From Gallionella sp. (GTDB lineage: Bacteria; Pseudomonadota; Gammaproteobacteria; Burkholderiales; Gallionellaceae), in NCBI GenBank assembly GCA_023259035.1, contig JAHFRA010000001.1, forward strand, positions 1 through 64,000: a stretch of 64,000 nucleotides of DNA, read 5' to 3'. A model generated the notes under the pieces. That model made no database searches. It saw only the letters and a program-made list of their open reading frames with translations, and was not told where the DNA came from. This document shows, piece after piece, positions 9,837-15,133 of this stretch; within the stretch, counting starts at the first letter, position 1; each line of letters begins with the position of its first letter. Position numbers and translations under genes: made by a program.

Positions 9837-11325
9837 CCAAATGGATAATCTGGAAACCGCCGCACACCCCGAGAAGCTGCGCCGCGTTGCGATCGATCCG
9901 GTGTCGCGCGTCGAGGGCCACGGCAAGGTCACGCTGCTGCTGGACGAGAATGACCGCGTGCATCAGGTACGGTTGCATATCGTCGAGTTTCGCGGCTTCG
10001 AAAAATTTATTCAGGGGCGACCTTTCTGGGAAGCGCCGGTGATGGTGCAACGGCTGTGCGGCATCTGCCCGGTGAGCCACCATATCGCAGCATCCAAGGC
10101 GATGGACATGATCGTCGGCGCGACAATCACGCCGACGGCGGAGAAGGCGCGGCGGCTGATGCATTACGGCCAAATATTTCAATCCCATGCGTTGCATTTC
10201 TTCCACCTGTGCTCGCCAGACCTGCTGTTCGGTTTCGATTCGGATGTCGCAAAACGCAACATCGTCGGCATCGCCGCCGCTTACCCGGAGATCGCCAAAC
10301 AGGGTGTGCTGTTGCGCAAGTACGGCCAGGAGGTAATTCGCATTACGGCGGGCAAGCGCATCCACGGCACCGGCTCGATACCCGGCGGGGTGAACAAGAA
10401 TGTCAGCGTGGAAGAGCGCGATTATTTGCTGAAGGATATCGGCCAGATGATCAAATGGAGCCGCGATGCGGTCGGCATCGCGCGGCAGTTGTTCGAGCAG
10501 AACCTCGACCTCTACAACAATTTCGGAACTTTCAAGACGCACACGCTCAACCTGGTGCGCGCCGACGGCGCGCTGGATCTGTATCACGGCGGGCTGCGCG
10601 CGCGCGACCTGAACGGCAAGACGCTGTTTGACCACTACGATTACGGGCATTACTGGGACGTGATCTTCGAGGACGTGAAGCCGTGGTCGTACATGAAGTT
10701 CCCGTTCCTGCGCAGCCTCGGACCGGAAACCGGCTGGTATCGCGTCGGCCCGTTGAGCCGCGTGACGCAATGCGACTTCATCCCCACACCCTTGGCGGAA
10801 GAACAGCGCAAGGCGTTCATGGCGTTCAACGGCGGCTCGGCGACGGTCGCGACGCTGGGCTTCCACTGGGCGCGCATGATCGAAATGCTGCATGCCGCCG
10901 AACTGATACAGGAACTGCTGCACGATCCCGACCTGCAAGGCAACGATTTGGTCAATATCGGCAAACGCCAGGCGCGCGGCGTCGGCGTGATCGAGGCGCC
11001 GCGCGGCACGCTGATCCACCATTACAAGGTGGACGAGCACGACCAGATCATCCGCTGCAACCTGATCGTATCAACCACGCACAACAATCAGGCGATGAAC
11101 GAAGCAATCCGCCAAGTGGCGCGGCAATATATCGACGGGCGCAAGCTCACCGAAGGCCTGCTCAACCACATCGAGGTCGCGATCCGCGCCTTCGACCCCT
11201 GCCTGTCCTGTGCCACTCATGCGCTGGGCAAGATGCCGCTGGAAGTGGAGTTGCTGGATGCGGAAACCAGCAGGGTTGATGTGCTGACACGCGCGTCGGA
11301 TGGAACGTTCAGTGCGCAGGGCTGA
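9829..11325 (+). CDS. hoxH: [NiFe]-hydrogenase large subunit HoxH
   Basis: This is the catalytic subunit (498 aa) that holds the NiFe(CN)2CO site. The four ligand cysteines are in RLCGIC (Cys77, Cys80) and DPCLSC (Cys458, Cys461). The motif is followed by ATH464 and a 34-residue tail beginning ALGKMPLE; cleavage after His464 by HoxW would mature the enzyme. With HoxF, U and Y it forms a group 3d NAD+-linked bidirectional hydrogenase. Its stop overlaps the hoxW start by one base. Confidence 0.95.
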   Translation: MTDQMDNLETAAHPEKLRRVAIDPVSRVEGHGKVTLLLDENDRVHQVRLHIVEFRGFEKFIQGRPFWEAPVMVQRLCGICPVSHHIAASKAMDMIVGATITPTAEKARRLMHYGQIFQSHALHFFHLCSPDLLFGFDSDVAKRNIVGIAAAYPEIAKQGVLLRKYGQEVIRITAGKRIHGTGSIPGGVNKNVSVEERDYLLKDIGQMIKWSRDAVGIARQLFEQNLDLYNNFGTFKTHTLNLVRADGALDLYHGGLRARDLNGKTLFDHYDYGHYWDVIFEDVKPWSYMKFPFLRSLGPETGWYRVGPLSRVTQCDFIPTPLAEEQRKAFMAFNGGSATVATLGFHWARMIEMLHAAELIQELLHDPDLQGNDLVNIGKRQARGVGVIEAPRGTLIHHYKVDEHDQIIRCNLIVSTTHNNQAMNEAIRQVARQYIDGRKLTEGLLNHIEVAIRAFDPCLSCATHALGKMPLEVELLDAETSRVDVLTRASDGTFSAQG

Positions 11326-11804
11326 TGACAGCACCCATTCTAGTCTTCGCCATCGGCAACGAATCGCGCGGCGACGATGCGCTTGCGCCGTTGCTGCTGC
11401 GCCAACTTCAAACTGAATGCATCGCGCAAATCGAGCTGATCGAGGATTACCAGTTGCAGGTCGAGCATGTCACCGACCTGATAGGACGCAGCGCAGTGTT
11501 GTTCGTCGATGCCGATGTGTCCTGCGTCGAGCCGTTCCATCTTTCCGAGATTGCCGCCGCAAAGGACAGCAGCTACACCAGCCATGTGATGACGCCGTTC
11601 GCGCTGCTGCATACTTACCGGCAGGTGTATGGAACAGATGCGCCTCCCGCTTTTCTGCTGCGTATTCGCGGTTACGATTTCGAGCTGGGCAACCCGTTGA
11701 GCGACAAGGCAGCGGACAATCTGGAAGTGGCAACGGAGCAGGTACGCGCATTGTGCGCGGATGGCAATCTGCAAAGCTGGCGGCAGCGCTTGGTAAATGT
11801 CTGA
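11325..11804 (+). CDS. hoxW: Hydrogenase maturation endopeptidase HoxW
   Basis: This 159-residue protein belongs to the HycI/HoxW protease family that removes the C-terminal tail of the large subunit after nickel insertion. It begins with the family signature GNESRGDDA and has the nickel-sensing acidic residues in the expected region (DADVS near residue 63). It follows hoxH with a one-base stop/start overlap, so HoxH is its expected substrate. Confidence 0.9.
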   Translation: MTAPILVFAIGNESRGDDALAPLLLRQLQTECIAQIELIEDYQLQVEHVTDLIGRSAVLFVDADVSCVEPFHLSEIAAAKDSSYTSHVMTPFALLHTYRQVYGTDAPPAFLLRIRGYDFELGNPLSDKAADNLEVATEQVRALCADGNLQSWRQRLVNV

Positions 11805-11861
11805 CGCCATGTATAGTAAGCTTCGCCTGAATCTCAATCCCGCAATGTCGAAGATATTTCC

Positions 11862-12812
11862 ATGAAGCAAGAGGGCTACGCAACAACCTTGGAGTGGCTG
11901 AAAACGAATCCCTCCCTTGATGAGCTGTGCGCCAAATACCCCTCAGAATGGGCGGCGGTGCAACAGGAAATTTCCGCCATTGTCGAGCGCGGTGTCGCGG
12001 AAGAATTGAAGGCCTACCTCGAGCGCCTCTCCGCACAGGCAGCGCCAAACAAGTCATCTTCCGGGAACCGGCAGAAAAACAGGGAAGCCGTCCTGTCGCA
12101 ATTTATCCGCAGCCGCATGGCGCACGAGTCCGTCAAGAAACTTTGCCTGTCCACGCTGGCCGCCGATGCGGGTGCAACGAAAGGCAAGCTGCGCTTCAAT
12201 CTGCTCAATGGCTATATTGCCCAGCAGCTGCTGTTTTCCAGGGGGCTGGAGCGCAAGCCGGTTTCGCTGTTCTGGTTCCGCCTGTTCTGGCCGCTGGTCT
12301 GGCAGAAGAAGCGGCTCATGCCATTGGTGCAACCCAGGGGGATTTATTGTTTCTATTCGCGCGAGTTGGTCGAGGCGCTGGCCGGGATGATCGCTTCCAG
12401 AAGCTGTCTGGAAATCGGCGCGGGGGACGGTACCCTGTCGTGCTTTCTGAAGGATCGGGGCGTGGCGCTTACCGCAACGGACAATCATGGCTGGAGCCAA
12501 GCAGTGGAGTATCCCGACTGGGTCATCAAGCTCAATGCCCGCGAGGCATTGGTTACTTATTCTCCAGAGGTGGTCATCTGTTCGTGGCCGCCAGCGCAGA
12601 ACGATTTCGAACGCCACGTGTTCACGACGCCCAGTGTGCGGCTCTATATCGTCATCGGTAGCCGTCACCAGTTTGCCTTTGGCAACTGGAAAGACTACCG
12701 GCAGCAATCCGCTTTCGAGCTTGAAGAGGACAAGAAGCTGGGTGCGCTGCTGTTGCCTCCCGAACTGGAGTCCGCTGTCTATGTGTTTCGGCGGAAAAAC
12801 GGCCATGCATGA
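11862..12812 (+). CDS. SAM-dependent methyltransferase-like protein inside the hox-hyp operon, function unknown
   Basis: The 316-residue product has a helical N-terminal ~90 residues and a conserved middle region (LNGYIAQQLL, FYSRELVEALAGMI). A class I methyltransferase nucleotide-binding motif follows near residue 183 (CLEIGAGDGTLSCFL), with an acidic strand end (TATD) after it. SWPPAQNDFE could occupy the position of the usual catalytic motif IV. It is not a standard hydrogenase maturation factor. It sits between hoxW and hypA, 57 bases after the former and overlapping the latter by 8 bases, so it is likely co-transcribed and coupled with hypA. Its substrate is unknown; it may be an accessory factor or an unrelated passenger. 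Confidence 0.7.
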   Translation: MKQEGYATTLEWLKTNPSLDELCAKYPSEWAAVQQEISAIVERGVAEELKAYLERLSAQAAPNKSSSGNRQKNREAVLSQFIRSRMAHESVKKLCLSTLAADAGATKGKLRFNLLNGYIAQQLLFSRGLERKPVSLFWFRLFWPLVWQKKRLMPLVQPRGIYCFYSRELVEALAGMIASRSCLEIGAGDGTLSCFLKDRGVALTATDNHGWSQAVEYPDWVIKLNAREALVTYSPEVVICSWPPAQNDFERHVFTTPSVRLYIVIGSRHQFAFGNWKDYRQQSAFELEEDKKLGALLLPPELESAVYVFRRKNGHA

Positions 12813-13146
12813 AATGTCGTTGGCTGAAAACGTACTGCAAATCATCGAAGATGCGGCGCAGCAGCAGGGGTTCGCGCGGGTCAGAACGGTGTGGCTGGAA
12901 ATCGGCCAACTGGCCTGCGTGGAGCAGGAATCGTTGCGTTTCGGCTTCGATGTGGTGACGCGCGGCAGCATTGCGGAACAGGCGCGACTGGAAATTATCG
13001 AGACAGCTGGGCAGGGCCGCTGTGAAAAATGCGCGCAAAATTTTCCATTGGCCGCGCTTTATGAGGCATGCCCGGAATGCGGGAGCTATGATGTCAAGGT
13101 GACCGGTGGTGACGGGATGCGCATCAAAGAGCTGGAAGTCGAATAA
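12805..13146 (+). CDS. hypA: Hydrogenase nickel incorporation protein HypA
   Basis: HypA (113 aa) delivers nickel to the hydrogenase large subunit with HypB. The start at 12805 gives the obligatory MHEMS N-terminus whose His2 binds nickel. The zinc site is formed by CEKC and CPEC. It overlaps the end of the methyltransferase-like gene by 8 bases; hypB follows after 9 bases. Confidence 0.93.
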   Translation: MHEMSLAENVLQIIEDAAQQQGFARVRTVWLEIGQLACVEQESLRFGFDVVTRGSIAEQARLEIIETAGQGRCEKCAQNFPLAALYEACPECGSYDVKVTGGDGMRIKELEVE

Positions 13147-13155
13147 GGAGCAGGT

Positions 13156-13968
13156 ATGTGTGTTACATGCGGATGTGGAATTGGACAGACGCTCATCGGC
13201 GGGTATGCGCTCCGGCAGCAACGCAAACCGGGCGAGCCGATGCGCTTTCGTTTGCATGAGAAGGATGCGCTGGTTTCGGACGTGAGCGCTTCCCGTATCG
13301 TGAAGCTTGAACAGGACCTCCTCGCCAAGAACAACGTCTACGCCGATACAAACCGCCGCTATTTGTCCGCGCACGGTATTTTTGCGCTCAACCTGGTATC
13401 CAGCCCCGGCTCCGGCAAGACCACGCTGCTGGTGAAGACCATCGCAGCGTTGAATGGAACGCCGCCGCTCGCGGTCATCGAGGGCGACCAGCAGACCGAA
13501 AACGATGCGGCGCGCATCCGTGCTGCCGGTGCACCGGCTATCCAGATCAACACCGGCAAGGGCTGCCATCTGGATGCGCGGATGGTCGGCCAAGCCGTGC
13601 AGCAGCTGAACTTGCAGGACGACAGCCTGTTGCTGATCGAGAACGTCGGCAATCTGGTCTGTCCTGCCAGCTTCGATCTGGGCGAGGCGCACAAGGTGGT
13701 GATCCTGTCGGTGACCGAGGGAGAAGACAAGCCGCTCAAGTATCCCGACATGTTCCGCGCGGCAGATATGATGCTGCTCAACAAATGCGACCTGCTGCCG
13801 CATCTGACCTTCGATGCCGATCTCGCTGTCGAATATGCGCACCGCATCAACCCCAAGCTGCAAGTGATCCATATCTCGGCAACCAGCGGCGATGGAATGC
13901 CGGAATGGCTGGCGTGGATCAGGGAAGGCTGCCGCAACGCGGCTGCCGCGAAAGCGTCGCTTGGATAA
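13156..13968 (+). CDS. hypB: Hydrogenase nickel incorporation GTPase HypB
   Basis: HypB (270 aa) is the GTPase for nickel insertion. The N-terminus carries the high-affinity metal motif (MCVTCGCG). The G-domain shows [10 protein letters not shown] (P-loop), [10 protein letters not shown] and NKCD. There is no histidine-rich stretch, so nickel storage is not expected. AAGGAG precedes the ATG. Confidence 0.95.
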
Positions 13969-15133
13969 AACCATTGCTTTGCCGTTTGCCGGCCCACCGA
14001 TTCTGGCCTGCGGCGCATGGCTGAAAAACACCGTCTGCGTCACGCGCGGCAACGAGGCGCATGTTTCGCAACTGATCGGCGATCTGGACAGCGCCGAGGC
14101 GCGGCTGATGCTCGACAGTACCGTGGCGCGCCTGTGCCACGAACTCGATGTGCAGCCGGAGATCGTCGCGCACGATCTGCACCCCGATTTTTACAGCACC
14201 CAGTTCGCGTATGCCTATGCCGCACGGCGCGGTCTGCCGATGGTCGCCGTGCAGCACCACCACGCGCACATCGCCGCGATCTGCGCCGAACATCACATCC
14301 ATGATGCAGTGCTCGGGTTGGCATTGGATGGCGTGGGGCTGGGCACCGATAACACGCCGTGGGGCGGCGAATTGTTGCTCGTGGAGGACGCGGGGTTCGA
14401 GCGCCCGGGGCACTTGGCGCCACTCCCCATGCCCGGCGGCGACCGCGCCGCGCGCGAACCGTGGCGCATGGCGGCAGCGGTGCTGTTTCAACTGGGCCGC
14501 GGCGACGAAATTGCGCAACGCTTTCCCGACCAGCCGGGAGCGCAGACGGTGGCGGCGATGCTGCAACGCAACTTGAACTGCCCGGCCACCTCCAGCACCG
14601 GGCGGCTGTTCGATGCCGCTGCAGGATTGCTCGGCGTGAACGAGATACAGGCCTTCGAGGCGCAGGCAGCGATCCGGTTGCAGGAACTGGCGCAGCGCCA
14701 CGGACAGGTCGCGCCGCTGGAAGGAGGCTGGCGGATTGATGAGAAAGGTGTGCTGGATTTCTCGCCGCTGCTCGCGGTGCTGGCCGATTGCCCAAAAGTA
14801 AACAATGGTGCGAACCATGGCGCGGCGCTGTTCCATGCCACGCTCGCCGCAGGTCTGTCCGAATGGGTGGAACGCGCCGCCTGTCGGCACAACATCGCCG
14901 TTGTCGCATTGGGCGGCGGCTGCTTCCACAATGAAATCCTGTTGCGCACCCTGTCTGACAGGCTTGCTGCGCAAGGGCTGCGGGTGCTGACGGCGCAGCG
15001 GATGCAGCCCAACGACAGCGCGATTTCACTCGGTCAGGCATGGGTTGCGATGCAACGTGTCAAGCAAAAAATTGCGTGTGTCACGCTATTACCAACGCCT
15101 TTGGTGGGGAGTTGCAGGAGAAATGAGAAATGA
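13961..15133 (+). CDS. hypF: Short HypF: only the C-terminal carbamoyltransferase (Kae1-like) domain
   Basis: HypF makes the thiocarbamate precursor of the active-site cyanide ligands. Full HypF is about 750 residues with acylphosphatase, zinc-finger, YrdC-like and Kae1-like domains. Here only the last is present (about 390 aa): [11 protein letters not shown] at the start, [13 protein letters not shown], the metal motif QHHHAHIAA and [10 protein letters not shown]. The proposed start is a TTG at 13961 overlapping hypB by 8 bases; an ATG at 13892 would overlap hypB by 77 bases and add unlike residues. A similarly short HypF1 is known in Ralstonia eutropha. No gene for the missing domains is in the window. 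The stop overlaps hypE. Confidence 0.85.

Follow-up and report, generated by a model that had tools for sequence, protein, structure and literature searches.

A class I methyltransferase-like gene between hoxW and hypA in Gallionella is more likely a passenger of its hydrogenase island than a maturation factor

Nostoc PCC 7120 has an extended hyp operon in which five open reading frames (ORFs) that are not hyp genes are co-transcribed with the hyp genes; these ORFs keep their position across several N2-fixing cyanobacteria (PMC2408588). The subject here is a gene that lies between hoxW and hypA in a 64,000-nucleotide stretch of Gallionella sp. DNA (assembly GCA_023259035.1, contig JAHFRA010000001.1, positions 1 to 64,000; hereafter the window) and is predicted to encode a class I S-adenosylmethionine (SAM)-dependent methyltransferase. 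A first-pass annotation took its tight coupling to hypA to suggest a role in [NiFe] hydrogenase maturation, adding that it could be a passenger. We know of no class I methyltransferase in [NiFe] hydrogenase assembly, and among the literature titles and abstract openings seen, none dealt with this methyltransferase family or linked a class I methyltransferase to the maturation of hydrogenases, which is not proof of absence. The evidence of unlinked homologues and of carriers without hypD favors the passenger: the gene probably belongs to a stand-alone, horizontally spread family of class I methyltransferases and, in the window, is more likely carried along by the hydrogenase island than a part of the maturation machinery. 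This reading is based on the unrelated neighbors present at most loci and on carriers that have no [NiFe] maturation genes.

Of the homologous loci, taken as the best 80 of 135 relatives in a named collection, ten show linkage to hydrogenase genes; every one of them belongs to a single 37-row Gallionellaceae-like clade of iron-oxidizing bacteria. Several of the 80 lie on short contigs, so hydrogenase linkage can be missed, and the neighbor map has no called gene for L119, L145, L148 and L155. At one locus beyond the ten (L127), hypA lies on the opposite strand at a distance of about 2 kb, behind another gene. A search of 150 Gallionellaceae genomes gave matches in 34: 29 long copies (one cut at a contig end), 2 remnants, and 3 weak matches that apparently belong to another methyltransferase. 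Ten of the 29 long copies are in or near hydrogenase loci. The gene is present in 19 of 76 genomes of the genus and 15 of 349 of the order; in the phylum sample it occurs in 1 of 398, the window's own genome. hypD is absent from 8 of the 12 order-level carriers outside the family, all 8 listed as 100% complete, and present in the other 4. Since hypD occurs in 113 of the 349 genomes of the whole order sample, no association between the gene and hydrogenase is seen at this level.

A maturation factor should occur with hydrogenase genes across its homologues, which the linkage count and the hypD-less carriers do not bear out. It should also be present wherever the same hydrogenase is; however, hoxH is found in 105 of the 150 family genomes, and only 27 of those 105 contain a long copy of the methyltransferase gene, which stands directly beside hoxW in 6. 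At the best 30 hoxH loci, hoxW is found in 29 and the methyltransferase gene in 4. In one genome (G090, locus L044), about 40 residues of the gene survive as a remnant immediately behind an open hoxW frame, and the rest of that genome gave no long copy. Thus, the gene can be lost while hox remains. Genomic context and the carriers without hypD led us to reject a hydrogenase-specific gene, and together with the hoxH loci they leave the proposed maturation role unsupported. The first-pass annotation had held that homologues lying mostly away from hydrogenase loci would count against such a role. That is the pattern overall and in the family, but not in the genus.

The surroundings of the homologues are diverse. 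Family members occur in Gallionellaceae, Methylobacter, Geobacteraceae, Chitinibacteraceae and Actinomycetota (L137, titled a Bifidobacterium breve metagenome-assembled genome, groups with environmental Actinomycetota homologues, and its label may be wrong), as well as on plasmids, where five records have homologues that span 80% or more of the protein with identities of 40-47%. A phage-borne gene was considered and rejected, as phage records gave no match and viral contigs no confirmed match. Of 20 upstream neighbors scanned, 3 lack a Pfam match at 1e-5. The remainder are of many kinds, including response regulators, LytTR, HupE/UreJ, GGDEF, M48, CDF, RND or outer-membrane efflux, GMP synthase, aminotransferase, MetE, terminase and subtilase.

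Some of these neighbors would suit an enzyme that makes or modifies a metal-handling molecule, for nickel at hydrogenase and HupE loci and for other metals on plasmids. The three plasmid neighborhoods examined (L031, L032 and L033, of five, the Serratia and second Azospirillum matches being left out) have metal-transport or metal-resistance surroundings (CDF, P-type ATPase, RcnA or copper genes). In four related loci (L091, L092, L097, L098) the gene directly upstream, some 40 bases away, is HupE/UreJ nickel-permease-like. A CDF gene is present at L129 and L130, a CusA/CzcA-type pump at L116, and nicotianamine synthase is within the first ten rows of a Foldseek structure comparison. Although the plasmids point to metals, metal genes are thin at other loci; a metal-resistance gene was therefore rejected, and we regard the broader metal-linked explanation as very unlikely. 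Other pump genes are also found next to the family. In three Geobacteraceae-like loci (L123, L124, L147), the methyltransferase gene begins roughly 1 base before an RND efflux gene finishes; by our own reading of the sequences, the N-terminal sequence of this pump resembles the drug-efflux kind, and metX-like and TtcA-like genes are close by. Among the RND pumps, the one at L116 alone was scored against NCBIfam (as CusA/CzcA) and the one at L123 alone against Pfam.

Several observations weigh against a mere passenger. They would instead fit a lineage-specific recruitment in the Gallionella/Ferrigenium clade, with the enzyme as an accessory of [NiFe] hydrogenase assembly that acts on HoxH, a Hyp protein or a small ligand. 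Within the genus, 11 of the 19 carriers are hydrogenase-linked (a count that includes G861, assigned to locus L084 by coordinates) and 8 are not. Within the family, hoxH is present in 27 of 29 carriers versus 78 of 121 other genomes (Fisher p 0.0016) and still in 17 of the 19 unlinked carriers (p 0.034), and hypD in 25 of 29 versus 74 of 121 (p 0.015), in tests that ignore descent. The gene (X) touches hydrogenase genes in five arrangements: hoxW-X-hypA in the window, Rep helicase-X-hypA (L105), GltD-like NAD(P)-binding protein-X-hypA (L113), hoxW-X-uvrD (L138), and TrpB-like-X followed by the small and large subunits of another [NiFe] hydrogenase (L087). Finally, under parsimony the linked label needs 3 changes on an 89-row tree (built without the partial genes L148, L155 and L161) and 4 on a 39-row tree, for which 0 of 200 bootstrap trees, in a bootstrap that had not settled, need just a single change.

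The differing arrangements and the label changes are the best evidence for a hydrogenase role, to which they nevertheless lend only a low probability; a single entry followed by rearrangement of the one island accounts for them equally. Recruitment also gains from the join to hypA in six loci. Against it stand the sparse presence of the gene at the best hoxH loci, the remnant beside hoxW, the unlinked carriers of the genus, and an approximately unbiased (AU) test in which a single linked clade, and so a single origin of linkage, is not rejected (p 0.14). On balance recruitment appears unlikely. Capture by Gallionella/Ferrigenium hydrogenase islands, perhaps repeatedly, to give what is now a lineage-specific accessory whose methylation target is HoxH, one of the Hyp proteins or a nickel ligand, is distinctly improbable; if true, it would give the first class I methyltransferase in [NiFe] hydrogenase assembly known to us.

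L087 lies within the window's starred clade of 8 on the 89-row tree and outside the starred clade of 7 on the 39-row tree. Directly downstream of its methyltransferase gene (L087:7212-12247), the [NiFe] hydrogenase small and large subunits are followed by a protease and then a CheA/PAS-like kinase, and this hydrogenase is possibly a sensory one.

The overlap with hypA, on which the maturation role had largely been argued, can be explained by the hypA sequence. The start of HypA, Met-His-Glu, is encoded by ATGCATGA, which contains TGA in another frame, and consequently any gene placed before hypA in that frame has its stop there. Six loci (the window, L084, L085, L086, L105 and L113) end in the hypA start, which supplies their last residues, while L083, L088 and L109 do not. 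The overlap is present because the hypA start supplies the stop, and the likeliest reading is that it records the way in which the two genes came together; translational coupling with hypA is possible. At the other end, parts of the window's leader recur upstream of some of 25 unlinked clade homologues, which are related and include two near-copies: ATGTC within 30 bases in 6 (0.7 expected from shuffles) and TTTTC in 6 (1.3 expected), whereas TTTCC, the window's own leader ending, occurs in 1 (0.7 expected). This only suggests, from the sequences, that a short 5' piece moves along with the gene. Sigma-70-like sites in 11300-13200 are no more frequent than chance (1 found, 0.8 expected from shuffles).

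The ORF itself counts as a real gene, given the 29 long homologues in the family genomes, its single copy in the source genome (by genome search), and a ratio of nonsynonymous to synonymous substitutions (dN/dS) of 0.10-0.15 against 11 relatives, which indicates that the protein is under purifying selection. The coordinates confirm the first-pass description of a 316-residue frame between hoxW and hypA with an 8-base overlap, and the assignment to class I methyltransferases from CLEIGAGDGTL is borne out by the fold. An AlphaFold2 (AF2) model contains a Rossmann-like methyltransferase domain, and methyltransferase-fold enzymes are found in the rows shown by Foldseek and VIA; the helical N-terminal region modeled by itself is poor (pLDDT 66). 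In an alignment of 58 homologues (row L131 contains a few X residues), E184, A187, G188, D189, G190, T191 and L192 are invariant, as are D207, the acidic residue after strand 2, and P244, while S241, W242 and P243, at the end of the modeled strand 237-241, are nearly so. The degenerate SAM site that, in the first-pass annotation, would have told against its proposal is thus not seen. Fold, SAM motifs and dN/dS support an intact class I SAM-methyltransferase with predicted enzyme activity.

SAM would bind at motif I, where D207 would hold its ribose, and the methyl group would pass to a substrate that packs beneath the helical part, next to the SWPP loop and the region of N247/E250. The substrate would be something found in many bacteria rather than a hydrogenase part. 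Our guess at its class is a small molecule, about as likely as the other classes together, then a nucleobase, and, well behind, a protein.

Family members are about 315 residues long and have a helical N-terminal region followed by a Rossmann domain. This domain contains E-[IV]-[GA]-A-G-D-G-T-L and, in almost all members, C-S-W-P-P. At E 0.01 the window protein has no family match in Pfam or NCBIfam, and Methyltransf_23 (PF13489) is weakly matched by 17 of the 58 members. The family is well conserved, and the copies of Pfam and NCBIfam searched contain no model dedicated to it. TehB tellurite methyltransferase was rejected at 13.8 bits, versus a cut-off of 218 bits for NF008405. The PADLOC model mad2 is weakly matched by 28 of 58 members (best E 2.4e-5), probably through general methyltransferase similarity.

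The coordinates of the gene, its parts and its neighbors are collected in the table. In the window, hypA, hypB and hypD each score above the cut-off of their own NCBIfam model. The hypF ORF (13892-15133, 413 aa), whose start falls within hypB, is a C-terminal part only, matching HypF model positions 382-740 below the cut-off. A second hoxH, 89% identical to that of the window, lies outside it in the same genome at a contig end (G000:C51:141-1625); the source genome may have a second hox cluster, or it may be contaminated to some extent (listed value 4.94%).

Table. Positions in the window of the methyltransferase-like gene, its parts and adjacent features
Feature	Position	Strand	Basis or remark
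Methyltransferase-like gene, class I SAM-dependent	11862..12812	+	ATG start, 316 aa plus stop; homologues, structure model, dN/dS
hoxW, hydrogenase maturation protease, upstream neighbor	11325..11804	+	TIGR00072 over cut-off (superfamily model); ends 57 nt before the methyltransferase ATG
hypA, downstream neighbor	12805..13146	+	TIGR00100 over cut-off
Overlap of methyltransferase gene with hypA start, ATGCATGA	12805..12812	+	8 bases
N-terminal all-helical region, residues 1-125	11862..12236	+	AF2 model
Motif I CLEIGAGDGTL, residues 182-192	12405..12437	+	Invariance in 58-row alignment
SWPP, residues 241-244, end of strand 4 (motif IV position)	12582..12593	+	Alignment, model
Leader directly before ATG	11840..11861	+	Parts (ATGTC, TTTTC-type ending) recur before unlinked clade homologues
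Sigma-70-like site TTGGTA-16-TATAGT	11790..11817	+	End of hoxW; may be chance

With the passenger favored, a tempting candidate for a hydrogenase maturation factor loses rank, and the case shows that an overlap within an operon can mislead. Compared with class I SAM methyltransferases (Methyltransf_23, PF13489), the window protein shares the Rossmann fold, motif I and the acidic residue after strand 2, and it has its own helical N-terminal region and SWPP loop. In KsgA and Erm proteins, the motif after strand 4 is N-[LI]-P-[YF]. An Erm/KsgA-like nucleobase N-methyltransferase acting on rRNA or DNA would place the window protein among these enzymes; however, S-W-P-P stands in place of that motif, profile comparison with 12 KsgA proteins gives no similarity (probability 0.04%), and the fold match is generic, since Foldseek places a sugar C-methyltransferase in its first row. 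Such an activity is therefore highly improbable, and KsgA/Erm identity itself was rejected on the differing motif and the absence of an NCBIfam match at E 0.01.

The Nostoc ORFs offer the nearest likeness in setting, since in both cases unexplained genes are co-located with hyp genes; the word "methyltransferase" is absent from the text on them (PMC2408588). The two cases differ in what becomes of the genes: the Nostoc ORFs stay in place, whereas the methyltransferase gene wanders.
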